Under the pieces are notes generated by a model. That model saw nothing but the letters and a program-made list of their open reading frames with translations, made no database searches and was not told where the DNA came from. Below are positions 26,060 through 38,417 of a stretch of 64,000 nt of DNA, in pieces (positions within the stretch are counted from its first letter, which is position 1; each line of letters begins with the position of its first letter). The DNA is taken from NCBI RefSeq assembly GCF_947259025.1, contig NZ_CAMYKO010000005.1, positions 496,001 to 560,000 of the forward strand, given 5' to 3'. The DNA comes from an uncultured Methylophaga sp. Its GTDB lineage: Bacteria > Pseudomonadota > Gammaproteobacteria > Nitrosococcales > Methylophagaceae. The translations under genes and the position numbers were made by a program.

Positions 26060-28252
26060 TCAAAACGGCAGTGTCATCTGAACCGTGACATTACGCCCCG
26101 GGCTCAGTGCATAGCCTTTGTAAGTGTCGAGAAAATCTCGGTACTCCTCATCAAACAGGTTATTGACCCGAAGATTGACCTGGCCATGCTCGCCACTCGC
26201 CTCATAGGGCAGATCAAACCCGGCATAAATGTTGACCAGGGTGTAATCATCGGTTGAGGCGGTGCCAAAAGGCCTGTCATCAAACTGACTGAAAGGTTCC
26301 AGTCGACCGGCAGCATCCTTGTCCATCTTATGAATGACTTCCAGTGTGAGATACGGGTCTTTCAACAGCGCTGCCGATTCAGGTGTCAGGGTGAAGCCCC
26401 CTCTTACCTCATCTGCGGCAAGCAAAGGCAGATCGTTGCCACCCCGATCAAAATCACCGCGCACCATCTCGTAGCTACCATGCAAGGCCAGCAGTTTATT
26501 CACCTGGTAATGCGCCGACAAATCCGTGCCGTAAAGGGTGGCATCGGCCTGATCAGCCTGCAGAATCGGTAAGCCACCCGCATTGGTGGTACCGGTGTCA
26601 CCGAAGAATATGTAGTCGCTGATCTTGTTGCGATACACCGTGACTTTGGCCTGCAATCGCTCTGATTTCCAGCGCAGCGATAAATCAGTGTTCAGCGAGG
26701 TTTCCTCGTCCAGTGTGGGGTCACCGACCTGCACTGCAGCGACACCGCCATGAACACCATTCACGAATAACTCGAACATGTCAGGCGCTCGAAAGCCTCG
26801 GCCGATATTCGCAGCGGCCACCAGGTTATCAGTCACCTGATAACTGGCACCAATAGAACCCGTGATAACGCTGTAGCTCTGCTCTCTCAGAGAGGCATCA
26901 GTGGGTATGACACTCTGATCGAAAGTTTCCCCGGCATCCGCTTTCTGCTCACGACGGTCGAAACGCAGTCCGGCATTGACAACCCAATCACCAAAATCAA
27001 GCTCTTCAAAGCCAAACAGGGAATAGTTGTCGATCTCTCCCCCCGGTGAGAGCGCCACCGCCCCTCGGGATACCTGCTCTTCGCGAACCACTTCCACACC
27101 CCAGCGGCCACTTAACCAGTTGTTAATGTTTTCATGAACCAGTTCCAGCCGCCCGGTATAACTGTCGCGTTCCAGGTCGATAACGATATCCTCTGGCAAA
27201 AACTCGCGGGTGCTGCCATTAGGTCGATTCGCCGCTGGTGGCGGGCCGGGATTGGATTGACGCTTGTTATTCGACCAGGTAAAGCTGGGCTCCAGATGCC
27301 AGCCGGCTTTCAGATCGATCATGGCTTCCATCTGAAACAAATCGTTTTCCAGCTTCTGGCCGATACCAATGCCGTTGGGCAAGTTGATGGGTGGGGGCAA
27401 TAAATAGTTATGGTCATCTTCCCAATGCTGATAACGCGCCGTCACCTTACCAAACGGGGCTAACCAGCCGAATGCCAATTCACCGTTTCGCTGTTCATAA
27501 TCGGTGTGATCCAGTTCGCCGGAAAAATTGGGGGCCCCTTCTCTGCCACTCTCTGGAAAGGTCGAAACATTGGGCGTGGTGATATTGCCACCATCACGGC
27601 CCAGAAAAGCCCCGGTGAAGCCGAACTGATCATTGGCCGCATTCAGCCGCAGACCACCCATCCGTTCATTATTATTAGTGCTGTAGCCGCCTGTCAGTGC
27701 ACCGCCCAGCTCTGTCTCACCGGGTGATGCAAACGGTACAGGCTTGGCAATCACATTCACTGCCCCGCCAATCGCGTCGGAGCCGTAAAGAATACTCGAT
27801 GCTCCTCTGACGACCTCAACCCGCTCTGCCAGAAAGGGCTCAATATTGGGGGCGTGACGGACACCGTATTGCTGATGGTAGACACCAATACCATTTTGCA
27901 TTACCCGCACCCGGTTACCACTGAGGCCGCGAATCACTGGCTTGCCGGTCTGGCTGCCGGTAGCAATATTGCTGATACCGGGCAAAGCATCAAGCGTCTG
28001 GCCTAATGAAGCGGTCTGGTGTTTTGTTTTTTCTCTGCCCTCCACCACATCAACATCCGCGGGGGCATTGAATGGTCGGGCTTTTCTCGCCGTTCCGGTC
28101 ACGGTGATGGTATCAAGTGCAGCAGCAGCAACTGCTGTGGCATTATCCGGCTGGGTGTTTTGATCGGCACTGTTAGTGTCCTCCGCAGCAACGTGCATAG
28201 GAAACAATGCCAGCGTGCCTAACATCACGCTGGTTCTGAATGAAACAAACAT
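26060..28252 (-). CDS. TonB-dependent outer-membrane receptor
   Basis: 730 residues from ATG 28252, which has AGGGAG seven bases upstream; the open frame runs to 28306. A signal peptide (MFVSFRTSVMLGTLALFPMH, cut after VAA) precedes a TonB-box-like segment (LDTITVTGTAR) and a plug domain (QTLDALPGISN, VIRGLSGNRVRV, EVVRGASSILYGSDAIGGAV). A 22-strand-type barrel follows, ending in VTVQMTLPF with the expected terminal Phe. Substrate is unknown; ZnuD-like metal or haem receptors are the nearest guess. It is preceded by a small exported protein and a Fur/Zur-like box. Confidence 0.92.
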   Translation of the reverse strand: MFVSFRTSVMLGTLALFPMHVAAEDTNSADQNTQPDNATAVAAAALDTITVTGTARKARPFNAPADVDVVEGREKTKHQTASLGQTLDALPGISNIATGSQTGKPVIRGLSGNRVRVMQNGIGVYHQQYGVRHAPNIEPFLAERVEVVRGASSILYGSDAIGGAVNVIAKPVPFASPGETELGGALTGGYSTNNNERMGGLRLNAANDQFGFTGAFLGRDGGNITTPNVSTFPESGREGAPNFSGELDHTDYEQRNGELAFGWLAPFGKVTARYQHWEDDHNYLLPPPINLPNGIGIGQKLENDLFQMEAMIDLKAGWHLEPSFTWSNNKRQSNPGPPPAANRPNGSTREFLPEDIVIDLERDSYTGRLELVHENINNWLSGRWGVEVVREEQVSRGAVALSPGGEIDNYSLFGFEELDFGDWVVNAGLRFDRREQKADAGETFDQSVIPTDASLREQSYSVITGSIGASYQVTDNLVAAANIGRGFRAPDMFELFVNGVHGGVAAVQVGDPTLDEETSLNTDLSLRWKSERLQAKVTVYRNKISDYIFFGDTGTTNAGGLPILQADQADATLYGTDLSAHYQVNKLLALHGSYEMVRGDFDRGGNDLPLLAADEVRGGFTLTPESAALLKDPYLTLEVIHKMDKDAAGRLEPFSQFDDRPFGTASTDDYTLVNIYAGFDLPYEASGEHGQVNLRVNNLFDEEYRDFLDTYKGYALSPGRNVTVQMTLPF

Positions 28253-28313
28253 AGGGTTCTCCCTGTAACTGACACGTGCCTGTCCGGCACGCTGAATGAC
28301 TATCAAAGTGTTA

Positions 28314-28625
28314 TCAGTTCAAAGAGAAATGAGGCGGGCCACGCACCTGGTGATTGAGGAAACCGTCTTCAAGGCTGATATCGGCAGCAACCGGTGTTGC
28401 CAATAAAAGTTGGAAGACAATAAAGCTGCCGTCTGTGTTGTTAGCGAGGGCAGATGAGAATAAATGCTTAAAAGTAGCCAGTTCACACTCGCAACTCTCT
28501 GTGATCAGTGGCGCATCAAACAGGTGTGCTTCTACATCGTGCGCCAGACTGATTGATTGCAGCACAACCAGCACCAGCAACAAGGCATAAACCTGCCTTT
28601 GATATTTGTGAGCGACTGGGGTCAT
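28314..28625 (-). CDS. small exported protein upstream of the receptor
   Basis: 103 residues. A hydrophobic N-terminus (QVYALLLVLVVLQSISLAHD) looks like a signal peptide or anchor. A short histidine- and cysteine-bearing region follows (HDVEAHLF, ESCECELATFKHLF), then LATPVAADISLEDGF. I cannot name the family; small His/Cys proteins of this kind occur next to metal-uptake receptors. It ends about 60 bp before the receptor start. No clear Shine-Dalgarno precedes the ATG. Confidence 0.65.
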   Translation of the reverse strand: MTPVAHKYQRQVYALLLVLVVLQSISLAHDVEAHLFDAPLITESCECELATFKHLFSSALANNTDGSFIVFQLLLATPVAADISLEDGFLNHQVRGPPHFSLN

Positions 28626-28659
28626 GGACGAAAGTGTTTGAACTAGCTAAAAAATACAA

Positions 28660-28674
28660 TGATATATCGTATCA
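28660..28674. promoter_or_regulatory. Fur/Zur-like operator
   Basis: TGATATATCGTATCA is a 15-bp imperfect palindrome whose outer five bases on each side match the 7-1-7 Fur consensus (TGATAATNATTATCA; 11 of 14 positions). It sits 35 bp upstream of the small exported protein that heads the receptor locus. Fur and Zur cannot be distinguished by eye. Confidence 0.5.
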
Positions 28675-28822
28675 CTTTATGCGACTGACTTAAAATTTGC
28701 CTCCTGCTTCGCGGCATTATTAGATCTGGGTTCAGTCATAAATTTGTTCTGACAATGTTTTAAGCGCAATGAGAGAGAAACGCTACATTGCTGGCACAGT
28801 GACTCGGGCTCGCAAATGTGAA

Positions 28823-29713
28823 TTATTTGCCAAAGTCCCTGGCTGGCTTGGGGCGTGAATAAATACTTAAAGCAGTGACGGTCAATAATATCAGCCCCAT
28901 TCCAACAATCTGTGAGGGTGCCAGCGCCTCATTGAATACCATTATCCCGAATAACGCCGCTGTCACCGGTTCGATCATGGCAATGATTGAAGCCACAGCC
29001 GGTGCCGTATGTCTAAGCCCTTTGATATAAAGCACAAATGATAAACCGGCCCCCAGAACACCGAGCATCACAAAGAGTAACAAGTCGGCTGAACTGATAA
29101 CGGCGCTCAGTTGATCAGGTTGAACAGGCGCTACCAGCGCCAGCACAAAGGTCAGAAAAGTAATGGAGAGTATCGCCTGTGGACTGCCATGAGGCGCAGC
29201 GAACTTAAAGCCAAAGATAAAAATGGCATAGGACAGACCGGCCAGCAACCCTGCACCGATGGCTAAGGGCGTAATATTGCTGGTTTGGCTATCAAAAACC
29301 TGTGTCAGTAATACAATTCCCAGCATCACAACCACAATCGCCGCCCATTTCATCCGGGTCGACTTTTCCAGCTTAAGGGCAAATGACAGCAGAAACACAA
29401 AGATCGGCGCGCAATACATCAACGTCGCGGCAACCGCAATGCTGCCCTCATTAATGCTGATGAAATAAAAAGAGAAGTTACCGGCAACGCCAAGACCCGC
29501 GATGATCGACCAGAACCACAAGCGAGGGTTGGCCAACTCCGTGGTTCGCTGGCTGACTACCAGCCAGAACAGGACGATCAGCAAGCCAATCGCACCCCGG
29601 CAGAAAGACACCAATAACGCATCCCAGCCATTAGCCATCAGCATCCCGGCAATACCACCTGTGAGGCCCCAGAAAAACGCAGCTAAAATCACGTATATCG
29701 TGCTGATGTTCAT
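28823..29713 (-). CDS. EamA/DMT family transporter
   Basis: 296 residues with about ten hydrophobic helices in two EamA repeats (IYVILAAFFWGLTGGIAGML ... ; IGAGLLAGLSYAIFIFGFKF ...). The second repeat carries the typical AAVASIIAMIEPVTAALFG-like sequence (PAVASIIAMIEPVTAALFGI). Substrates of such DMT exporters include amino acids and metabolites. It begins 43 bp after the stop of the broken gdx gene on the same strand, so it may fall under the same riboswitch. Confidence 0.9.
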   Translation of the reverse strand: MNISTIYVILAAFFWGLTGGIAGMLMANGWDALLVSFCRGAIGLLIVLFWLVVSQRTTELANPRLWFWSIIAGLGVAGNFSFYFISINEGSIAVAATLMYCAPIFVFLLSFALKLEKSTRMKWAAIVVVMLGIVLLTQVFDSQTSNITPLAIGAGLLAGLSYAIFIFGFKFAAPHGSPQAILSITFLTFVLALVAPVQPDQLSAVISSADLLLFVMLGVLGAGLSFVLYIKGLRHTAPAVASIIAMIEPVTAALFGIMVFNEALAPSQIVGMGLILLTVTALSIYSRPKPARDFGK

Positions 29714-29756
29714 AGACGCCCAGTAAAATTGGAAAGCGCTGAAAATAATTCAGTCA

Positions 29757-30077
29757 TTATGAAGCTGATGACAACTTTAAGCCTAAAATACCCGTGATGA
29801 TAAGTAATAAGCTGATAACTTTGACCGTATTCAAAGGCTCTTTGAGAAAGACCACGGCAAAAACGACAGCGCCCACCATACCGATACCGACCCACACAGC
29901 ATAAGCAATACTCAAAGGTAGAGAGCGCATTGCGATACTAAGGCAATAAAAGCTTGCAGCCATCGCAGCAATGGTAATGAATGAGAGAAGCGGCTTAGTA
30001 AATCCGTGAGTTTATTTGAGGCCGACGGCCCAAACGACTTCGAGTAAGCCAGCAAAGATAAGAATTAACCAGTCCAT
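29757..30077 (-). pseudogene. gdx: guanidinium exporter Gdx/SugE with a nonsense codon
   Basis: Read through from ATG 30077 (AAGGTG ribosome binding site) the frame encodes 106 residues matching SugE/Gdx of the SMR family. It starts MDWLILIFAGLLEVVWAVGLK, with the essential Glu13, and continues THGFTKPLLSFITIAAM, then IAYAVWVGIG and LLLIITGILGLKLS. Codon 22 (30014-30012) is TAA where homologues have Tyr (GLKYTHGF). The remaining 68-residue restart frame from 29963 lacks helix 1 and Glu13. A single-base change would restore it. An intact guanidine-II riboswitch lies upstream. Confidence 0.88.
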
Positions 30078-30093
30078 AACGACACCTTTTAAT

Positions 30094-30133
30094 GGGGTCG
30101 TCCCCACCAGTTAATAAATCTTCGGGTCGTCCC
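30094..30133 (-). promoter_or_regulatory. guanidine-II (mini-ykkC) riboswitch
   Basis: Read on the minus strand, two hairpins carry the diagnostic ACGA loops: GGG-ACGA-CCC (30133-30124) and GGGG-ACGA-CCCC (30105-30094), separated by 18 bases. The second ends four bases before the Shine-Dalgarno region of gdx. Tandem ACGR-loop hairpins just upstream of a gdx/sugE gene define the guanidine-II class, in which guanidinium binding permits expression of the exporter. Confidence 0.92.
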
Positions 30134-30226
30134 TAAGAAGTTAGCCGGATACTAGCACCACGAAATTTGCCTGGCAACGGGTTCGTCGCATGAGGTTTTA
30201 CACAAAGGCCGAAGCGTTAGCGTCAG

Positions 30227-30281
30227 ACCCAACGGAAGCGCGCTTTTTGCAGCTGGAGTGAATTTGATGTTTTCGTTAGGA
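30227..30281 (-). repeat. attC site 13 (terminal, degenerate)
   Basis: The right core GTTAGGA (30275-30281) overlaps the stop of the last cassette gene, and the right half resembles that of attC 6. No convincing partner core is found: ACCCAAC at 30227 is the best. The site may be truncated, leaving the left boundary uncertain. Confidence 0.5.
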
Positions 30282-30728
30282 GCTTTCATAACAAAGCTCT
30301 CTGAAAGGATGGTTTTGGGGAGAGAAAGAATTTACAAATTTTTTAGTTTCAGCATAAGAAAATACGATTTTGGGCACTTTGTAGGTTTTGTTGGTATTTA
30401 AGTCAGTGATTGAATAAATGTTTGTGTTACCTTTTACATTTTTATCTACACTTAAATTAGTGTCCCAGCCGCAAAAAATATCCCGGCCTCGCCAATTTTT
30501 GAATCTAATACCGTCTCTGCTTAATGTCATACATGTTAAGGCTGAGACAAATAGCAGCACAAATAGTACGCATCCAACCATAGGTGGTAAAACAAGCAAT
30601 AAATTATCGAAACGAATATGTCCCTGATAAAAAGCTATACCTAACCCTAAAGCAAACCCGAGCCATGAATTTTTTATCAGGAACACTGATATATCTTTAA
30701 ATTTCACTTTAAGGTTCAAGGTTTCCAT
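30276..30728 (-). CDS. cassette 13: two-helix protein with PH-like C-terminus
   Basis: 150 residues. Two membrane helices (about 22-37 and 43-68) are followed by a soluble beta-rich part (LSRDGIRFKNWRGRDIFCGWDTN, YSITDLNTNKTYKVPK). This resembles bacterial PH-like/YcxB-type domains but no family is recognised firmly. The ribosome binding site AGGAGC lies in the core of the neighbouring attC (GTTAGGAGC). It is the oldest-position (integrase-distal) cassette. Confidence 0.75.
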   Translation of the reverse strand: METLNLKVKFKDISVFLIKNSWLGFALGLGIAFYQGHIRFDNLLLVLPPMVGCVLFVLLFVSALTCMTLSRDGIRFKNWRGRDIFCGWDTNLSVDKNVKGNTNIYSITDLNTNKTYKVPKIVFSYAETKKFVNSFSPQNHPFRELCYESS

Positions 30729-30734
30729 TTTTGC

Positions 30735-30813
30735 TCCTAACGCTTAAATAAGGGGCAGCGCGGTAGCGCAGCCCCGCGAACGATAGTGAGCAAGCTTACT
30801 TTCCTTGTTAGAT
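30735..30813 (-). repeat. attC site 12
   Basis: Cores TCCTAAC (30735) and GTTAGAT (30807). Internal arms GGGGCAGCGCGG and GCGCAGCCCCGCG can pair. The stop codon of cassette 12 lies inside the right core. Confidence 0.8.
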
Positions 30814-31167
30814 GCTTTCATCTTCAGCGTTGCTTTTGTTTATATTTTTCGGGATGAACTTACTAACTTGCAAGCCAATAGCTGCTAATGAGAAAAAAAT
30901 CCCAAAAAGTGAACAACCAAATGCTGTTTTATAAAAAGTAAAGTCTGCAGTTAATGAAGCGTTAGATTTGCCAAACATAATAATGGTTAGAAGAGGAGCA
31001 ATGACAAGCATTACATTTGAATATACAACCCAAAACCCCGCTCTTTCAGCGTTGCCACAAATATCTATCAATATTTTTCTAAGTGGTTTCAATAAAGCAA
31101 TAATGACAACGCCACTTACAAATATGCCGATAAAAGTTTCTATAAAAAACAAGCTTAACTGATTCAT
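30808..31167 (-). CDS. cassette 12: three-helix membrane protein
   Basis: 119 residues. Hydrophobic helices lie near 5-26, 47-64 and 80-100, with a lysine-rich C-terminus (KFIPKNINKSNAEDESI). The stop codon lies in the attC core. AAGGAAG precedes the ATG. No family recognised; an inner-membrane protein of unknown role. Confidence 0.72.
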   Translation of the reverse strand: MNQLSLFFIETFIGIFVSGVVIIALLKPLRKILIDICGNAERAGFWVVYSNVMLVIAPLLTIIMFGKSNASLTADFTFYKTAFGCSLFGIFFSLAAIGLQVSKFIPKNINKSNAEDESI

Positions 31168-31190
31168 TTAACTTCCTTATTCTCTATTGC

Positions 31191-31252
31191 CTCTAACGCC
31201 TAATTAAGGGTCTGACGCGAGACGGCAGTCCTTTTTGAATTTATGGTTAGGT
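31191..31252 (-). repeat. attC site 11
   Basis: Cores CTCTAAC (31191) and GTTAGGT (31246). A short 62-bp site with complementary arms GGGTCTGACGCG and GACGGCAGTCC. The preceding gene ends inside it. Confidence 0.8.
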
Positions 31253-31655
31253 TTTTACTATAGCCAAGATACAAAATGTAGCAGCCAAACCCAAGAATGA
31301 AAGTGGCAGTATAAAATTTACCTAAGTATTCACAAAGTAGCCCAATTATTGAATCAAACATGGCTATTTTGTATGAAGGATAAATAACAGCAAAAGAGCT
31401 CACAGGACATGTCTCACCAAGCAAAACTTCAATAGCAAGTAAGAACATCCCCATTCCTAATACAATGAAAAGCCTTACATATGCTTGTTTTGAGTATGGT
31501 GTGCCTATTGGCCATACCAGATAGACAAGAGAAAAATAGATAATGGCAATAAATGCCAAAGGGATCAATGATGTTGAAGAAGAGTAAGTGGCAAGTGCTA
31601 TAACAATAGCAAAAAGTGTCATGACGAAAATTAAGAGTCCTTTCACAAATTTCAT
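31200..31655 (-). CDS. cassette 11: four-helix membrane protein
   Basis: 151 residues, strongly hydrophobic, with helices near 5-22, 28-48, 60-78 and 108-130 and two cysteines in a loop (GETCPVSSFAV). The last dozen codons (KRTAVSRQTLN) are encoded by the attC site itself, common in integron cassettes. Very AT-rich. No recognisable family. Confidence 0.72.
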   Translation of the reverse strand: MKFVKGLLIFVMTLFAIVIALATYSSSTSLIPLAFIAIIYFSLVYLVWPIGTPYSKQAYVRLFIVLGMGMFLLAIEVLLGETCPVSSFAVIYPSYKIAMFDSIIGLLCEYLGKFYTATFILGFGCYILYLGYSKNLTINSKRTAVSRQTLN

Positions 31656-31661
31656 TTTGAA

Positions 31662-31763
31662 ACCTAACGCCTGAGCTCAGAGGCGTTTGACGCGATGGTA
31701 TTTATTGGCAATGACCAATAAATCGGCAACGGGTTAAACGTCCTTTGCAGCATATTGTTAGGA
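31662..31763 (-). repeat. attC site 10
   Basis: Cores ACCTAAC (31662) and GTTAGGA (31757). 102 bp, with an internal inverted repeat TTTATTGG / CCAATAAA at about 31699-31724. Confidence 0.82.
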
Positions 31764-32305
31764 ACCTGAACCATATTTGCTAAAGCTGTTTTCTACAAGT
31801 TCTAGTAACTTTGAATAGCTGATTTTTAGTGAATTCGATGATATAGCAATTGGACTGCCAACCATTTTCATGTTTGCTTTGTTTAAGGCACGCTTCATTA
31901 CGCCGCCCCGATTTACATATTTTTCGGGATCTTGGACATAGATTATTAGCATTTTTTGTCTTTGAATCTGATATTCGCTAAACCCGATATTTCCGCCCAT
32001 GGGATAAGCCCGGCAGATACACCGCTTGAATTATCCGTGATGCCCTTATGATTGAAGATTAGCCCCGGCTTTGAATCGAAGAGTTTAGTGATGCCATAAG
32101 CGGCACATAAACCGAAAAACGCCATGCAGATGTAGCCAACTGCATGGGCTATTTGAGGGTTGCTGTATTTGCGTGAAGATTCGATTTGTTCGGAATCTAA
32201 TGTGGTGAGCCAAAGAGCTCCAACCACAAATGCCAGTGACCCAGCAATAATCAGAATGATTTTAAATTTGCTGAGCGCTATTACTATTTCGTCTTCGTTT
32301 TGCAA
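31758..32305 (-). pseudogene. cassette 10: STM3941-like membrane protein, frameshifted
   Basis: The TTG at 32305, preceded by AAGGAGAG, begins MQNEDEIVIALSKFKIIL with two membrane helices. The frame runs to LIPWAEISG and then derails. The next frame resumes FSEYQIQRQKMLIIYVQDPE and KANMKMVGSPIAISSNSLKI to the stop at 31758. Together they match the STM3941 family across about 180 residues. One missing T in the TTT at 31982-31980 accounts for the break. It could be a true mutation or a sequencing error. Confidence 0.75.
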
Positions 32306-32320
32306 CGTACTCTCCTTGGT

Positions 32321-32398
32321 GCCTAACGCCGCGCACACCGGCGCGAGCTTGCGAGCGTCCGGCAGCCGGAGGCTGCGTGGTGCTGCGCTTGGTTATGT
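32321..32398 (-). repeat. attC site 9
   Basis: Cores GCCTAAC (32321) and GTTATGT (32392). GC-rich arms GCCGCGCACACCGGCGCG and GTGGTGCTGCGCTTGG flank the central GCCGGAGGC. Confidence 0.85.
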
Positions 32399-32416
32399 GT
32401 TGATTCGGCTGCCATA

Positions 32417-32824
32417 TTAGTTCGACAGGTTAAGCTGCCACGACACGCCATACCTATCCTTTAACCACCCAAATTTCTGGCTAAAGCCATAGTTATCCAA
32501 AGGCATTAGCTCTGAACCACCTTCGGCGAGGGCCCGAAATGCCTTCTCTATTTCGCTCATTGATTCACACTCAACGTACAGTGACATGGAAGGTGTAAAG
32601 GTAAATTGGTGGTCAAGATGGCTGTCCAGCGCCATAAACTCGGTACCGCTTATCGTAAACCTAGCCATCTTCGCAGAACCTTCTGGTTCATGCTCGCCAG
32701 CTTCGTAGCGCTGAAGGTCAATGATCTCTGAATCAGGGAATAGAGAGGTATAAAACTTGATTGCCTCCTCGGCTTTCCCGGCCTGTTCCCCGACAAACAT
32801 GAGCGAGGTCTTAATGGATTTCAT
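32417..32824 (-). CDS. cassette 9: VOC/PhnB-like protein
   Basis: 135 residues from ATG 32824, which has the strong ribosome binding site GGAGGAACAG. It is a glyoxalase-fold member of the PhnB/3-demethylubiquinone-methyltransferase-like family: MKSIKTSLMFVGEQAGKAEE, IKFYTSLFPDSEI, MALDSHLDHQFTFTPSMSLY and YGFSQKFGWLKDRYGVSWQL. The family often includes metal-dependent dioxygenases or resistance proteins, but the substrate here is unknown. It is less AT-rich than neighbouring cassettes. Confidence 0.88.
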   Translation of the reverse strand: MKSIKTSLMFVGEQAGKAEEAIKFYTSLFPDSEIIDLQRYEAGEHEPEGSAKMARFTISGTEFMALDSHLDHQFTFTPSMSLYVECESMSEIEKAFRALAEGGSELMPLDNYGFSQKFGWLKDRYGVSWQLNLSN

Positions 32825-32848
32825 CTGTTCCTCCGTTCTAGTTCGCAC

Positions 32849-32959
32849 ACATAACGCCGCTATAAGCAGCCATAATGGAGGTGATTGTTTTGCGCTAGCG
32901 TAGCGGCCAGCGCGAAATCTAGCACCGAAATGGAGGTCTGCTTGATGGCTTGGTTATGT
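32849..32959 (-). repeat. attC site 8
   Basis: Cores ACATAAC (32849) and GTTATGT (32953). The longest site of the array, 111 bp, with outer arms that pair (GCCGCTATAAGCAGCC / GGCTTGGTTATG) and an inner TTTTGCGCTAGCGTAGCG hairpin. Confidence 0.82.
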
Positions 32960-32970
32960 TTTGTAGCATG

Positions 32971-33366
32971 CTAATTGAACCACTTTCCGTCACGTAAATT
33001 TTGATAGTCTGCCTTGGCAGTAATGCGAACCATATTCGAAATAGCTCCATTTGCCCGACCATGATCTAATTCCGTAAGGAAAGCCTCAACCTCAGACTCC
33101 TGTGCGTGGAGTATAATATCCAGATACTTCTTTTGTTCACTTTTGCTAAGAGCTGTCTCTTTAAGCTGAAATGGATGGTGCATAGCGGCCTGAAGCAACG
33201 TAGCTCGCCACTCATCAGTAGCTATGATTTCAAAATCACGATTTTCCAAGGGCACAGTAACACCAAAATCGACAAACCCGCTAGCAATTGAAATTTTCAA
33301 TGAGTAATCCCCATCTTTTGCTATTGCGATCATACGTAGATTTTGAAATTTAATTTTCTTTTCCAT
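32971..33366 (-). CDS. cassette 8: unknown soluble protein
   Basis: 131 residues from ATG 33366 (MEKKIKFQNLRMIAIAKDGD). A TTG at 33390 would add eight residues. It is beta-rich at first (YSLKISIASGFVDFGVTVPL) and then helical (SKSEQKKYLDIILHAQESEV). No signal peptide or membrane helix. Family not recognised; the size and fold pattern resemble small cytosolic immunity or regulatory proteins, but nothing supports that further. Confidence 0.7.
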   Translation of the reverse strand: MEKKIKFQNLRMIAIAKDGDYSLKISIASGFVDFGVTVPLENRDFEIIATDEWRATLLQAAMHHPFQLKETALSKSEQKKYLDIILHAQESEVEAFLTELDHGRANGAISNMVRITAKADYQNLRDGKWFN

Positions 33367-33396
33367 TTTCCTGAATCGGCTCTCGATCAAGTGGAA

Positions 33397-33452
33397 ACAT
33401 AACGTTTTAATCAGCTGACGCGTTAGCGGTCAGCTGGATTTTTTTGTTATAC
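33397..33452 (-). repeat. attC site 7
   Basis: Cores ACATAAC (33397) and GTTATAC (33446). A short 56-bp site with the near-perfect inner inverted repeat AATCAGCTGACGCG / CGGTCAGCTGGATT. Confidence 0.82.
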
Positions 33453-34010
33453 GGCAACGTTTGTTTCAATGCCTTTACTTTTAATAAATACTAAAAAATC
33501 ATATAGAGATTCACCATCAAATGCTTTAGTAGCAAAATCGAGTTTGAATTTTTGCCCATCCTCATGAGTAAATGTCAGTCTTGAAGCTGCTTGATCTTTT
33601 ACTTGAAGGCTTCCTAGATTTGGAATCGTGATTGCAGCTTTCTCTATGATGTGTGCCTCACCTAAAGAAACTTTTTTTATTTTACTTAATGGATGCTGGT
33701 AGTCTATTGATTTCCAGCCACTTTTCCCTTTTACAAATAGATTATTATCAATAATGGAAAGGTTATAAGAGGCCAATGACTTGGTTATGCCATTGATATA
33801 AAAATATGCTCCTATTAGCACTAACAAACCACTTATAAGAAAACTTAATTGGGTTGCTAGCTGCTCATTCATTCCAAATGATTCTTTTAAAAAGATCATT
33901 ACGATAAAAAATAAAACCGCACCATAGAAAAAAGCAGAGAAAATGATTAGAGGAAGCCAGCCGACAAAAGATTTTAATATGGCTTCTTTCGTTTTAACTT
34001 TTGTTTTCAT
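33447..34010 (-). CDS. cassette 7: two-helix protein with PH-like domain
   Basis: 187 residues. Two membrane helices (about 17-42 and 55-73) are followed by a cytosolic domain with the pattern LSIIDNNLFVKGKSGWKSID, RLTFTHEDGQKFKLDFATKA and ESLYDFLVFIKSKG. This resembles PH-like/YcxB domains and echoes the layout of the cassette 13 and cassette 10 proteins. Very AT-rich. Function unknown. Confidence 0.75.
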   Translation of the reverse strand: MKTKVKTKEAILKSFVGWLPLIIFSAFFYGAVLFFIVMIFLKESFGMNEQLATQLSFLISGLLVLIGAYFYINGITKSLASYNLSIIDNNLFVKGKSGWKSIDYQHPLSKIKKVSLGEAHIIEKAAITIPNLGSLQVKDQAASRLTFTHEDGQKFKLDFATKAFDGESLYDFLVFIKSKGIETNVAV

Positions 34011-34024
34011 AATTATCCTTATTC

Positions 34025-34123
34025 GTATAACGCTTTGCTAAGGGGCAACCGAAACGCAGTGTAGGTTGTCCCGCGGAGGCCGCGCCTTTTGCGGCCGGAG
34101 TGCACTTGAGCAACTTGTTATGC
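34025..34123 (-). repeat. attC site 6
   Basis: Cores GTATAAC (34025) and GTTATGC (34117). Inner arms GGGGCAACC / GGTTGTCCC are perfectly complementary apart from one pair, and a second hairpin GGCCGCG-CCTTTT-GCGGCC is present. Confidence 0.88.
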
Positions 34124-34510
34124 ATATGACTCCATAATTCGCTTAGCATCATTAGTTACTGACTCAAGAGAGATATCTTTACTTGCCCTAAGATCAGTTT
34201 CCCAAGTATCTGGATTGCGCCAAAATTTGCTCTTAGCTGATAAACGAACGGATAAATCTTTGTTTACTCGTGAAATTAGGAAGGAAGCGTGTGACCAACG
34301 CTCGGCTAAATCCCACTCCTTTTCTCTTTCTCGCTCTCCACCTTCTGCTCTATGAAGAAGATAGGTTTGGGTTTTCTCAGAAGCTTCAACTACTACTTGT
34401 AAAGCATTGATAGCTTCACCGGTTTTATTCGCTTTCTTAGCCTCTAAATAGGCCACAAAAGATGTAACCAATGCAGTTAACGCAATCCAATCTGAAACTT
34501 CCGGGTTCAT
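34118..34510 (-). CDS. cassette 6: small membrane-anchored helical protein
   Basis: 130 residues. An N-terminal helix (VSDWIALTALVTSFVAYLEA) is followed by a charged, mostly helical region (KTGEAINALQVVVEASEKTQ, EREREKEWDLAERW). A very strong ribosome binding site, AGGAGGAATC, precedes the ATG at 34510. No family recognised. Confidence 0.75.
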   Translation of the reverse strand: MNPEVSDWIALTALVTSFVAYLEAKKANKTGEAINALQVVVEASEKTQTYLLHRAEGGEREREKEWDLAERWSHASFLISRVNKDLSVRLSAKSKFWRNPDTWETDLRASKDISLESVTNDAKRIMESYA

Positions 34511-34523
34511 GATTCCTCCTTAT

Positions 34524-34616
34524 GCATAACGCCCGGCTTTAGGGCGGACTTGTAGCCGCGCAGCGGCGGAAAGGCCGTCCCAGCCCCGAAGGGGCGATAA
34601 CAGCCGTTTGTTAGTT
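34524..34616 (-). repeat. attC site 5
   Basis: Cores GCATAAC (34524) and GTTAGTT (34610). GC-rich arms including GGGCGGACTTG / AAGGCCGTCCC, and a CCCCGAAGGGG hairpin. Confidence 0.86.
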
Positions 34617-35108
34617 GTGCTGCTTAAATTCGCTGTAGGTTAATCCAAGGGCCTTAACAGGCTTTCCGGTTCCAGAGAACTCAACAAGCACCCATGCTTC
34701 ACATACAGTTTTGCAATTGCCGCCGCCCCAGAGTGAGAATGCGACCGAGTGCGGTCCCACGCATGCTACAGGCTTAGCCAAATACTTTCTTTCATCGTCT
34801 ATCCGTTCATAGGCAGGGAGTATGGCATCAACCTCGAACGCGTCGTTCTCAACCGTATCAGACACGTATGAAATACTTTGCTCTAATACGTGCGGCTTTC
34901 CATAGTGGCCCATAGTTATTTCATAAGGGATTTCGGATTCTCTCAAACTAAACGGCAAAGATTGGACTTTGGAAATAATTTTGAATGATCTACATTCCAG
35001 ACTAACTTCGTCCGTTCTAACTTCATATGTGATGCCCTTGTGGGACAATTGGCCTGCATTGGCTACCGCCAACAATAGGTAAGCAACCAGAAAGACTAAC
35101 GCTTTCAC
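34611..35108 (-). CDS. cassette 5: secreted protein of unknown function
   Basis: 165 residues from a GTG (AGGAGAATTAG upstream). A clear signal peptide (MKALVFLVAYLLLAVANAG) is followed by about 145 residues with four cysteines (LECRSFK, VACVGPHS, GNCKTVCEAW). A conserved-looking core reads HSVAFSLWGGGNCKTVCEAW. It is likely periplasmic and disulfide-bonded. The family is not recognised. Confidence 0.75.
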   Translation of the reverse strand: MKALVFLVAYLLLAVANAGQLSHKGITYEVRTDEVSLECRSFKIISKVQSLPFSLRESEIPYEITMGHYGKPHVLEQSISYVSDTVENDAFEVDAILPAYERIDDERKYLAKPVACVGPHSVAFSLWGGGNCKTVCEAWVLVEFSGTGKPVKALGLTYSEFKQHN

Positions 35109-35123
35109 CTAATTCTCCTGTCC

Positions 35124-35210
35124 AACTAACGCCTGAGCTGAGGGGCTTTTGTGGAGTGGAGCGCGAAGCGCGTAACGGAACAAAAGTCCCGCTCCAGCGA
35201 TTTGTTAGCC
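35124..35210 (-). repeat. attC site 4
   Basis: Cores AACTAAC (35124) and GTTAGCC (35204). Arms GGGGCTTTTGTGGAGTGG and ACAAAAGTCCCGCTCC pair around a GCGCGAAGCGCG hairpin. Confidence 0.88.
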
Positions 35211-35723
35211 GTCTGATTGGTTGATGAGATCGACATAGGCATCTTTAACTAATTGTGATGGTTTTATACCTAAATATTCCATGAGTTCGTATGCTTCTGA
35301 TTGCCCGGACTTCGCTGATTCCTCTTCGGTGAGTACGACTTCAAGCTCCACGAAATACCCTAATTCCTTTACTTTATCCAAATGTATACGAGCCCTCCCG
35401 ACGATATAAACGACTCGCCTCTTTTGAACGCGACCTACTTGACCATATGCCAAAGACAGTGATTCGCGCAGTGTGGTCGGCGCCGTAGTAGGCGAACACA
35501 AATAGAAAGATTCTTTTGGCCCATTTTCGTCGGCCCTGCGATAGAAAATAAGCTCACCTTCCGTATCCGAGAAAGACCGCAACTTTAACCGGCCCGAATC
35601 GCAACGGAAAAAAGTATCGTCTTGGGTGAGGGTGATAGGGCCTTCGGCTGCGATTAAGGCTACCTTGTTCTCGATTCCGTCGAGGTGCTCGACGCTAGCT
35701 TTAATTTCGATATTACGCGGCAT
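35205..35723 (-). CDS. cassette 4: CYTH domain protein (class IV cyclase-like)
   Basis: 172 residues. The N-terminal NIEIKASV supplies the E-x-E-x-K-like tunnel motif of CYTH enzymes. Other tunnel strands are RLKLRSF, ELIFYRRAD, KRRVVYIVGRARIHLDKVKE and YFVELEVVLTEEE. CYTH proteins hydrolyse triphosphates or act as class IV adenylate cyclases. Whether this one is a cyclase or a thiamine-triphosphatase-like hydrolase cannot be told. The motif here is E-I-K rather than the full E-x-E-x-K. Confidence 0.88.
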   Translation of the reverse strand: MPRNIEIKASVEHLDGIENKVALIAAEGPITLTQDDTFFRCDSGRLKLRSFSDTEGELIFYRRADENGPKESFYLCSPTTAPTTLRESLSLAYGQVGRVQKRRVVYIVGRARIHLDKVKELGYFVELEVVLTEEESAKSGQSEAYELMEYLGIKPSQLVKDAYVDLINQSDG

Positions 35724-35732
35724 GAATCTGAC

Positions 35733-35810
35733 GGCTAACGCCGGGCTTTGCGGCGGTTTTGAAGGAGCGAAGCGACGAAAAAACCGTCCGACAACAGCCC
35801 TTGGTTATGC
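35733..35810 (-). repeat. attC site 3
   Basis: Cores GGCTAAC (35733) and GTTATGC (35804). Arms GCCGGGCTTTGCGGCGG and CCGTCCGACAACAGCCC pair, with a GAGCGAAGCGAC loop. Confidence 0.86.
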
Positions 35811-35813
35811 AAC

Positions 35814-36194
35814 TTAGTATCCACCCTGTCGAAGATGGACAACGTCACCAATGAGTATTCGTACTTTCTGCCCATCGCTCAGCTCCCCAGTGCCAGAGCC
35901 ATTCTTCAGATTTGTTCCACTCCTGGTTATTATTGCCTGCCCGGTCCGGCCATCGTTGCAAGTAAACTCCACTCTCAAACTTCGGCTTTGCGATAGCGAA
36001 TTGTAAGTCCCCTCACAAGACAGTCCTTGCAAACTGCTAGCTTCAAATGATCCGTTTCCGACTGGGCCACCCACGGCCTCACCGTAGAGCGATTCTTCTT
36101 CATTCCCAGGCAATTCCATCAGTACCGGAGTACGGACACAGCCGCCAAGTACTGCAACAGCTGCTCCTATTAGAAGGACTTTTTTCAAATTCAT
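35814..36194 (-). CDS. cassette 3: putative lipoprotein
   Basis: 126 residues with a lipoprotein signal peptide ending VAVLGGC, so Cys19 is probably lipidated. The mature part contains SLQGLSCEGTYNSLSQSRSL, RVEFTCNDGRTGQAIIT and DGQKVRILIGD, a beta-rich pattern seen in small uncharacterised lipoproteins. AAGGAATGAACT precedes the ATG. Function unknown. Confidence 0.8.
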   Translation of the reverse strand: MNLKKVLLIGAAVAVLGGCVRTPVLMELPGNEEESLYGEAVGGPVGNGSFEASSLQGLSCEGTYNSLSQSRSLRVEFTCNDGRTGQAIITRSGTNLKNGSGTGELSDGQKVRILIGDVVHLRQGGY

Positions 36195-36209
36195 AGTTCA
36201 TTCCTTACG

Positions 36210-36299
36210 GCATAACGCTCAGGTAACCGGCACCGGAGCGCCAGCGGAGGGAACCAAAAGCGGTACGCTTTTGGTGTCCGGTTGACCGTCTGGTTATAG
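36210..36299 (-). repeat. attC site 2
   Basis: Cores GCATAAC (36210) and GTTATAG (36293). Arms GGTAACCGGCACCGGAGCG and TTGGTGTCCGGTTGACC pair, with an inner AAAAGCGGTACGCTTTT palindrome. Confidence 0.88.
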
Positions 36300-36305
36300 G
36301 GCCGG

Positions 36306-36686
36306 TTACTCACTGATTAATTTACCGTTTTCCCAGAACTCGTTTACTCTGTCCCACCATATTTTTGATTCTGGCAGTAGATAGAGTTCAATTGACTTGG
36401 CATTGCTCTCGCCTTGAAGTCCCTCAAGCAAACCGATTGTTGCTGCTTCTTTAACATAAGGGCTGCCCTCGGTGTGCCAGCGCTCTATTACAGCAAACAA
36501 CGCGTTAAGCTCAGAGTCTTGCTTCGTTTCTATCAGTGAAGAAATATGTCTAGAAAGGTCGCCGAGAGCCAAATACAACGGCAGATCCTTTTCATCATCC
36601 CATTCAGCGATAAATTTTTCCCACACAGGCTTAAAGCTAGGGCAAGCTGCGAGAGCCAATTCAAACATTTCGTGCTTATCAATCAT
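36306..36686 (-). CDS. cassette 2: DUF7674-like protein
   Basis: 126 residues from ATG 36686 (MIDKHEMFELALAACPSFKP). It is helical and acidic, with EWDDEKDLPLYLALGDLSRH, ERWHTEGSPYVKEAATIGLL and a C-terminal SKIWWDRVNEFWENGK. This resembles small proteins annotated DUF7674, which often occur among toxin-immunity genes; that link is from memory and weak. No toxin partner is visible in the array. Confidence 0.72.
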   Translation of the reverse strand: MIDKHEMFELALAACPSFKPVWEKFIAEWDDEKDLPLYLALGDLSRHISSLIETKQDSELNALFAVIERWHTEGSPYVKEAATIGLLEGLQGESNAKSIELYLLPESKIWWDRVNEFWENGKLISE

Positions 36687-36700
36687 GATTCGCCAAGGCC

Positions 36701-36790
36701 CTATAACGCCCCGCACAGGGGCAGACAAATAAGCGCAGCGTTTTGGCTGTCCCAGCGACCAACGGGAGCGATTGCTGCGGATTGTTATAT
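36701..36790 (-). repeat. attC site 1
   Basis: Cores CTATAAC (36701) and GTTATAT (36784). Arms CCCCGCACAGGGGCAGAC and GGCTGTCCCAGCGACC pair around an AAGCGCAGCGTTTT element. Confidence 0.85.
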
Positions 36791-36791
36791 T

Positions 36792-37220
36792 TCATTGCAC
36801 CGACTTAATTTCTTTCAGGATTTCTTCCTGATAAGGCTGGGTGGCACAACCGTTCATAGAATTGTAGGCCGCCTTTTCGCCACTATTTGTGGCGAAGACA
36901 ATATACCTTTGACCGCTCTCTAAATAGGGATCGACGCAATAGCACCCATCACCAGCAAAGACAGTAGTGATGTTTGCCTCATCGCCTTTTACAACCTCGT
37001 CAATCTCGAAGGTGGCCACCTTTGACCCGCACTGCTTGCCCTGTTCGACAGTCCAGCAAATACCTGCCTTTTCTTTGATGGGCTTCCGGTCAATCACGGA
37101 GCCAACGAATACTATGTCTGCATGCTTGAGATAGAACTTCGTGTCGTTGCACGAAACCTCCATAGCTTGAGTGTTAATTGAAAAGAGAAGAACAAACACT
37201 GGAAAAAGATACTTCACCAT
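36792..37220 (-). CDS. cassette 1: secreted TIMP/NTR-like protein
   Basis: 142 residues from ATG 37220. A signal peptide (MVKYLFPVFVLLFSINTQAM) is followed by a cysteine-rich domain: CNDTKFYLKHADIVFVGSVI, ATFEIDEVVKGDEANITTVF, CYCVDPYLESGQRYIVFATN and NGCATQPY. The order ADIVFVGSV ... F-E-I ... VVKG ... ESGQRYIVFA ... C matches bacterial proteins related to metalloproteinase inhibitors (TIMP/netrin-like domain). Target unknown. It is the first cassette, nearest the integrase, where expression from the integron promoter would be strongest. Confidence 0.8.
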   Translation of the reverse strand: MVKYLFPVFVLLFSINTQAMEVSCNDTKFYLKHADIVFVGSVIDRKPIKEKAGICWTVEQGKQCGSKVATFEIDEVVKGDEANITTVFAGDGCYCVDPYLESGQRYIVFATNSGEKAAYNSMNGCATQPYQEEILKEIKSVQ

Positions 37221-37230
37221 AACTCTCCGA

Positions 37231-37280
37231 AAATATAACAGCATGTTAATGAGGCCGTTGGCCTCATAATAATTATTATC
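37231..37280 (-). other. candidate attI recombination site
   Basis: The minus-strand junction GTTATAT (core near 37239-37233) marks the entry of cassette 1. Upstream of it lies an 8-bp inverted repeat ATGAGGCC-GTT-GGCCTCAT (37249-37267), followed by an AT palindrome. A possible cassette promoter on the minus strand is TTGTCA with GATAAT 19 bases downstream, within about 37270-37325. The extent of attI cannot be set by eye. Confidence 0.6.
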
Positions 37281-37445
37281 GGGCGGCCTTTTAATTTTCT
37301 GACAAGAAAAGCCAGGTGCTCGATAAGTCTATGTAAATATGGTAGAAATGGAAAAAAAGTTCTTTTCAGGGAGAAAAGAATCGGGCCGATAATACGGATT
37401 ATTGTCGGGTTAGTTATGTGGTTATTCAGGGATGAGGTCGCTTCC

Positions 37446-38417
37446 ATGCAAAACAAATCTCCATTTCTTCAATCCATTGCGTCGATGATGCGGGTTGAGC
37501 GTTACAGTAGACGCACCATCACCAGTTATCTCTACTGGATTAAATATTTCATACTCTTCCATCACAAGCAACACCCGTCAGAATTAGGGGATGACGCTAT
37601 CGTTGCTTTTCTCACGCATCTGGCCAATGAACGTAATGTGTCGGCAGCAACCCAATCTATAGCACTGAATGCTCTGGTCTTTCTAAAACGTAAAGTGCTA
37701 CAGCAAGAAGTTGGCGATCTGGCGGCGTACAGCAAAGCAAACAGACAGCGAAAACTGCCAGTAGTGCTGACGCCCGATGAAGTCAACGGCCTGCTGGCTC
37801 AACTATCAGGCGTACCGAAGTTGGCGGTGTCGATGTTGTATGGTTCTGGTTTACGTCGAATCGAACTGGTTCGTTTACGAGTAAAGGATATCGATTTCGA
37901 CTACAGTCAGGTGCAAGTGTGGCAAGGCAAGGGCAATAAACATCGGCTTGTAACATTGGCGCAGGAATTACACGCCCCATTACGGGCACAGATTCAGAGG
38001 GTCGAACAACTGTTAGCTCAGGATGTTTCTGATAAATCGTACGCAGGTGCTCGCCTGCCCAATGCCTTGTCCAGAAAATACCCCAAAGCCGGTTTTGAAC
38101 TTGGCTGGCAGTTTCTGTTCCCTTCTACTCGACTGTCTCTAGACCCTGAGTCGCATGTTATCCGCCGACATCATGTGGATGAAAGCGCAGTGAATAAATG
38201 GATTCGCCAGGCGAGAACCAAGGCCGGCATAACCAAGGCTGTGACCAGCCACACCCTCAGGCATTCGTTTGCGACACATCTATTGCAGTCAGGCGCGGAT
38301 ATTCGCACTGTGCAGCAACAGCTCGGTCACAGTGATGTTAAAACCACCGAAATTTATACACATGTCCTCAAGCAAGGTGCACACGGGGTTCGTAGTCCCT
38401 TGAGTAACCTCAGCTAA
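37446..38417 (+). CDS. intI: integron integrase IntI
   Basis: 323 residues from ATG 37446 (GAGG eight bases upstream; an in-frame ATG lies at 37416). It is a tyrosine recombinase with catalytic Arg in MLYGSGLRRIELVRLRVKDI, HTLRHSFATHLLQSG, LGHSDVKTTEIYTHV (His and nucleophile Tyr). The integron-specific insertion is present (ALSRKYPKAGFELGWQFLFP, then LSLDPESHVIRRHHVDESAV). The N-terminal SAM-like domain is intact. I found no clear LexA box upstream. Its stop overlaps the convergent aminotransferase gene by four bases. Confidence 0.96.
   Translation: MQNKSPFLQSIASMMRVERYSRRTITSYLYWIKYFILFHHKQHPSELGDDAIVAFLTHLANERNVSAATQSIALNALVFLKRKVLQQEVGDLAAYSKANRQRKLPVVLTPDEVNGLLAQLSGVPKLAVSMLYGSGLRRIELVRLRVKDIDFDYSQVQVWQGKGNKHRLVTLAQELHAPLRAQIQRVEQLLAQDVSDKSYAGARLPNALSRKYPKAGFELGWQFLFPSTRLSLDPESHVIRRHHVDESAVNKWIRQARTKAGITKAVTSHTLRHSFATHLLQSGADIRTVQQQLGHSDVKTTEIYTHVLKQGAHGVRSPLSNLS

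Follow-up and report, generated by a model that had tools for sequence, protein, structure and literature searches.

A gdx gene with a premature stop codon behind a guanidine-II riboswitch

The window, that is, the whole stretch of 64,000 nucleotides of Methylophaga DNA analysed here, carries a complete regulatory unit in front of a gdx gene which, in our estimation, has very likely become a pseudogene through a nonsense change in codon 22 and is redundant with a second copy in the same genome. The features of the locus, with the basis of each assignment, are as follows.

30149-30177, minus strand: sigma-70-type gdx promoter, TTGCCA and TAGTAT spaced by 17 nt, with a TG ahead of the -10 box (promoter scan and alignment)
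30094-30138, minus strand: guanidine-II riboswitch aptamer, with helix P1 at 30138-30119 and P2 at 30105-30094 (RF01068, over the gathering score)
30083-30090, minus strand: gdx ribosome-binding site, AAAAGGTG (sequence and ribosome-binding-site check)
30064-30115, minus strand: alternative hairpin, proposed OFF state (lowest-energy fold and pairing in 8 aligned sequences)
30015-30077, minus strand: gdx codons 1-21, comprising helix 1 with Glu13 and Trp16 (translation and PDB alignment)
30012-30014, minus strand: premature TAA, codon 22 (sequence and translation)
29757-30011, minus strand: remainder of the gdx frame, codon 23 to codon 106 plus the terminal TAA, open, with Ser42, Tyr59, Trp62 and GxG (translation and family matches)
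28823-29713, minus strand: EamA-family exporter gene, 296 aa, probably an unrelated neighbour (PF00892, 109 bits)

The gdx gene extends from 30077 to 29757 on the minus strand, with the ATG at 30077-30075 and its own TAA stop at 29759-29757. A reading of the letters that preceded this analysis (the sequence-only reading) had claimed that codon 22 is TAA and that the ribosome-binding site and nearly all of gdx are intact, and sequence and translation agree with it: apart from codon 22, the frame is open and conserved, and no second disabling change was found. Codons 39-106 match the family model PF00893 with 63.5 bits. When the stop is replaced with X, the best PDB match is Gdx-Clo (6wk5; E 7.3e-31 over 104 residues), and the NCBIfam SugE equivalog, the best among the 21 models listed, scores 119.5 bits, under its cut-off of 126, which the second gdx of the genome exceeds with 134.4 bits. 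Glu13, Trp16, Ser42, Tyr59 and Trp62, the roles of which in Gdx-Clo are described in the accessible part of PMC9574504, are aligned at the same positions in the window gdx and in Gdx-Clo. The TAA at codon 22 splits Glu13 from the remainder, such that the window gdx has no single four-helix frame that includes this residue; as the sequence-only reading had it, Glu13, aligned to the Gdx-Clo glutamate, is confined to the 21-residue piece.

The open and conserved frame beyond the stop would be compatible with readthrough of the TAA or with a split protein produced by restart at codon 39, which we consider barely credible. The terminal codon of gdx is likewise TAA, and no other premature stop was found among 73 matches to proteins of the SMR family (within the aligned stretches; see below). 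The earlier suggestion of readthrough found no positive evidence, and informal inspection brought no readthrough element to notice. As for restart, the internal ATG at codon 39 is not preceded by a ribosome-binding site and, going by the usual SMR layout, presumably lies inside helix 2.

Given that gdx contains no second lesion, its inactivation is probably recent. Pairwise dN/dS of the window gdx is 0.06 against the copy of Salinimonas and 0.08 against that of Methylophaga sp. OBS3, with synonymous sites near saturation. A codon model for 9 copies assigns the window branch, a short one, an omega of 0.66, compared to 0.09 for the rest of the tree; the difference from the other branches is not significant (p = 0.27), nor is that from neutrality (p = 0.94). 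The preservation of the rest of gdx, the aptamer and the promoter, with no second lesion seen, also fits an error of sequencing or assembly, or a mutation acquired by the culture that was sequenced, in which case gdx would be intact in the species. We regard this explanation as rather unlikely: by completeness, the assembly (2.70 Mb in 8 contigs, 99.88% complete and 0.08% contaminated) ranks as high-quality, and Leu31 and Ala74, which are unlike the residues in all 11 other aligned copies (Gly at position 74 in each), fit slight decay. A substitution error that creates a stop codon is a priori unlikely compared with a true nonsense pseudogene.

Aptamer and expression platform

The sequence-only reading had placed a guanidine-II riboswitch upstream of gdx, and the Rfam model bears this out, with a match of RF01068 at 30138-30094 on the minus strand that scores 35.0 bits, above the gathering score of 32; its E-value is 0.0028 for a search of all 64 kb and 3e-05 for one of a 701-base stretch. 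Chance is already covered by the Rfam E-value; in the 64 kb, only two Rfam matches reach the gathering threshold, the riboswitch and one tRNA. The aptamer was thus assigned to the right place at the outset, except that it reaches 5 nt beyond the end coordinate then given. As was also noted from the letters, both hairpin loops read ACGA, and the two G+C-rich ACGR-loop hairpins of the guanidine-II class are present, with one A.G mismatch within P1; the window switch can probably still fold. The riboswitch ends 16 nt upstream of the gdx start, beside the ribosome-binding site, where a mutually exclusive hairpin is possible.

In this alternative hairpin, the ribosome-binding site is paired with the P2 loop and the 3' stem strand, and the first gdx codons lie in the outer stem together with upstream sequence. 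At lowest energy, the copies of the window, Salinimonas and OBS3 fold without P2, and the second copy of the genome, folded alone, retains it; the lowest-energy fold of the window is equalled or bettered by 11 of 200 shuffles. Across 8 aligned copies, the proposed pairs are standard in 91% of the cells, compared to 21-49% with slid partners, and 19 of 500 shuffles attain the percentage paired and the covariation score. Changes on both sides occur in two pairs, a number reached by 59 of 500 shuffles, and the number of pair types in these 8 copies is no higher than in shuffles. These values come from an alignment that shows little variation, has an outer stem partly under coding constraint and a Microbulbifer row that is poorly aligned there, and the tested structure was derived from one of the 8 sequences, a bias in its favour.

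The -35 box of the gdx promoter starts at 30177. The promoter has 9 of 12 matches with the TG present, and the scan taken alone is at chance level, with 2 sites compared to 2.0 in shuffles. The same layout, TTG(C/T)nn and TAnnnT spaced by 17 or 18 nt, with a TG ahead of the -10 box, begins 100-103 nt upstream of the gdx start codon in 7 of 10 copies and is absent from the other three copies examined, namely, those of Microbulbifer and G016 and the second gdx of the genome. The pattern was written after the alignment had been seen, and it hits 0.1-0.8% of mononucleotide shuffles per upstream stretch; the test left out G002, G003 and L065, though these were included in the upstream alignment. 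Judging from the aligned upstream regions, most intact relatives of the window copy share its promoter and the hairpin that would mask the ribosome-binding site.

In the model presented in the accessible part of PMC5486947, the riboswitch and the hairpin at the ribosome-binding site are mutually exclusive, making up an ON switch that frees the site. The hairpin predicted for the window copy and its clade fits this model. Intact copies would accordingly be ON switches, a mechanism that we infer from family, fold and alignment: without guanidinium, the P2 region would pair with the ribosome-binding site and the gdx start, and guanidinium would stabilise the two hairpins such that the ribosome-binding site is freed and the Gdx exporter is made. 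Induction at the window locus would yield a 21-residue peptide with helix 1 only.

A second gdx, and the rarity of broken copies

About 107 kb from the window copy, the same genome carries a second guanidine-II riboswitch, which scores 32.7 bits, and right behind it an intact gdx of 107 residues (G000:C5:633197-633568, reading 633568->633197; L003 11192-11569). This second aptamer starts near the end of a ribB-like gene, named from its translation by eye with no database match, and the two Gdx proteins are 50% identical. The presence of an intact second gdx with its own guanidine-II riboswitch means that guanidine export is not necessarily lost; loss of export as such, a candidate reading of the locus, is ruled out by this copy. 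Of the three options that the sequence-only reading had offered for the stop codon, loss of the exporter remains the likeliest as far as the copy is concerned but need not extend to the export function itself. With the other intact, riboswitch-preceded gdx kept, loss of the window copy could be nearly neutral.

Two surveys show how rarely such copies are broken. Among 95 genomes (the genome itself and relatives; E <= 0.001), 44 yielded a total of 73 SMR matches, which at the weaker end are to other SMR proteins. Five matches were flagged for a stop inside the aligned stretch, of which four (G002, G007, G085 and G015) proved to be terminal stops, so that the comparison of gdx in relatives, proposed with the sequence-only reading, leaves the window copy with the sole premature stop within the aligned stretches of the 73 matches. 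From 369 genomes sampled evenly across the class (E <= 1e-15), we obtained 75 matches in 66 genomes with four flagged: the window copy, two terminal stops (G085 and G312) and G250, that is, premature stops in 2 of 75. The gdx remnant of G250, another gammaproteobacterium (L142 1010-1315; G250:C12:7409-7714), has two real TAA codons within helix 1 and lacks both an ATG where gdx normally starts and an Rfam riboswitch match. Given this lack of an Rfam match, it was rejected as a second case of a broken riboswitch-gdx unit and serves as a baseline for broken gdx. Judging from these genome sequences, broken gdx copies occur elsewhere at a low rate.

The closest copies to the window gdx by protein identity are those of Salinimonas profundi (79%), Methylophaga sp. 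OBS3 (77%), a metagenome-assembled genome (MAG; 72%), Planctobacterium marinum (70%) and another MAG (66%). In the gdx tree, the Salinimonas copy is the sister of the window copy (bootstrap 84). According to a taxonomy look-up, Salinimonas belongs to the Alteromonadales and Methylophaga to the Thiotrichales; a sister copy from another order points to transfer between genera, with which the tree is consistent. The promoter-riboswitch-gdx unit is found in other surroundings in other genomes (330 nt upstream and 260 nt downstream were compared). On the best reading, the window gdx is a redundant, horizontally spread copy of a type found at differing genomic places in several genera. A plasmid search with the riboswitch, gdx and EamA returned 3 records with 60-80% identity, the best of which covers 24% of the query. 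In one MAG locus (L062 5785-11505), gdx lies among same-strand genes for small enzymes (acetyltransferases, VOC and methyltransferase, by eye), a cassette-like content.

The downstream EamA gene

The EamA gene starts (29713) 43 bp past the gdx stop on the same strand, at the distance given in the sequence-only reading. That reading had gone on to propose that EamA may be the sole product of the riboswitch transcript. In this scheme, the short gdx frame would be a leader and EamA the guanidinium-responsive product, which we judge to be very improbable. On its side are the shared strand, the short distance and the failure to find a terminator-like site between gdx and EamA, as well as the listing of EamA transporters with ykkC subtype 2d, ligand unknown, in the accessible part of PMC7266159. 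Comparative support is lacking. The flanks of EamA homologues at 17 loci (four other Methylophaga and 13 sites elsewhere in the class-wide sample; up to 1.5 kb each, with one side under 300 nt in L131) contain neither an Rfam guanidine-II match nor gdx (0/17), and wider regions (8-17 kb) that include the Methylophaga EamA genes contain no guanidine-II match (0/4). Conversely, no EamA match was found in any of the 26 gdx-holding loci (20 named, five from relatives and the second copy of the genome). The gene that follows guanidine-II at 26 loci (own genome, genus and relatives) is gdx in 12, including the window fragment, and biotin-carboxylase-type in 9, with no ORF found in the remaining 5. 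The carboxylase-type proteins were recognised by eye; the loci in which our script found no downstream ORF are L051, L053, L055, L056 and L057, and in L050, the aptamer pattern of the script was off the Rfam match.

The layout of the window itself also speaks against this role of EamA. With translation halted at codon 22, some 300 nt ahead of EamA would go untranslated, which should rather lower EamA expression; a translational switch would be expected to act on the gdx start and not directly on EamA; and EamA has a weak ribosome-binding site and possibly its own promoter at 29774-29745, the scan for which is at chance level. We dropped EamA as a conserved partner of guanidine-II and gdx, given its absence from both sets of loci and the other genes found downstream; sequence comparison indicates that it is most likely a chance neighbour of gdx. 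We put two 12-nt matches that link the EamA flanks to sequence beyond gdx in L062 (E 1.1 each) down to chance. Rewiring of the riboswitch, in which guanidinium-dependent translation of the 21-residue leader would set the fate of the transcript and hence the expression of EamA, strikes us as quite improbable; if true, it would represent an early stage of a switch changing its client gene.

An adjacent chromosomal integron

The broken riboswitch-gdx unit lies next to a chromosomal integron, immediately beyond its distal end; the integron has the following features.

37464-38411, plus strand: integron integrase gene intI (TIGR02249, 441-442 bits, cut-off 265)
30734-37250, minus strand, upper end approximate and no attI located: integron cassette array with 12 attC sites, from 30813-30734 up to 36790-36700 (R''/R' boxes by eye, then folded)
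30276-30728, minus strand: last cassette ORF, 150 aa, no Pfam match at E 0.001 (ORF list and Pfam)
30178-30281, minus strand: presumed decayed 13th attC, with R'' box TCCTAAC at 30281-30275, adjoining the gdx promoter (by eye)

The integron, with both intI and attC sites present, comprises about 13 cassettes, mostly with small ORFs, within window positions 30276-38411; one cassette ORF (32848-32417) weakly matches a VOC-family model (27 bits compared to a cut-off of 122). A strict attC scan of the window that required a perfect complement found nothing, and a looser motif scan proved insensitive, with 28 pairs, of which 12 were listed, and 2 of the 12 by-eye sites among those listed. The distal end of the array, which abuts the gdx promoter, has probably decayed because the 13th site has no R' box (GTTRRRY) that could be seen by eye ahead of the promoter and because its fold energy is weak, -0.07 to -0.09 kcal/mol per nt, compared to -0.126 to -0.262 for the 12 by-eye sites. 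After gdx or EamA, no attC was seen by eye in 28600-29760 or was present among the 12 listed pairs (of 28) of the insensitive scan. That gdx itself might be an integron cassette is a candidate reading that found no support, given that no attC was seen after gdx by eye and that the unit is found elsewhere in other surroundings.

Integron integrases (E <= 1e-60) are encoded in 7 of 24 genomes of the genus, our own included, and 6 of these score over the cut-off. In another Methylophaga (G021:C97:92028-92594; L115), the integron integrase is partial and has an internal TAA. On the other side of EamA, the window encodes a TonB-dependent receptor (26060-28306), for which the best NCBIfam score, under the cut-off, is of the heme/hemoglobin type and the 23 other Methylophaga genomes offer, by E-value, no better match than one of 30% identity; it was perhaps acquired.

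Discussion

Most likely, the window locus is nothing more unusual than a spare copy that has broken, with both gene and riboswitch of familiar kinds, and it leaves knowledge of guanidine sensing and export unchanged. The riboswitch seems to have outlived its gene: the aptamer, promoter and expression platform are kept, the protein is cut off, and an intact paralogue is present. The locus further suggests that a guanidine-II-gdx unit is self-contained and settles at various sites, in this case at the end of an integron. In the literature accessible to us, which was partial and hence does not prove absence in print, we recognised neither a riboswitch-controlled gdx broken by a nonsense codon nor an EamA gene behind guanidine-II.

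Compared with the guanidine-II (mini-ykkC) riboswitch and gdx/sugE of Escherichia coli, as described in the accessible sources, the window unit shares the two ACGR hairpins near the ribosome-binding site and the gdx gene directly downstream but differs in the stop at codon 22 and the A.G mismatch in P1. With Gdx-Clo (PDB 6wk5) and other SMR guanidinium exporters, it shares the key residues, whereas normal translation of the window gene yields residues 1-21. The intact copies of the clade (Salinimonas profundi, Methylophaga sp. OBS3, Planctobacterium marinum and the two MAGs) resemble the window copy in their 66-79% protein identity, a guanidine-II match over the cut-off and the same promoter layout, and differ from it in having neither a premature stop nor an EamA match in the fetched loci. 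Finally, riboswitch-associated Gdx is known from plasmids (Slipski et al. 2020, as cited in the accessible parts of PMC10829512 and PMC12186494). The likeness to these plasmid-borne units lies in a guanidine-II-gdx unit that moves between genomes; the unit in the window, in contrast, is chromosomal, located at the end of an integron, and broken.
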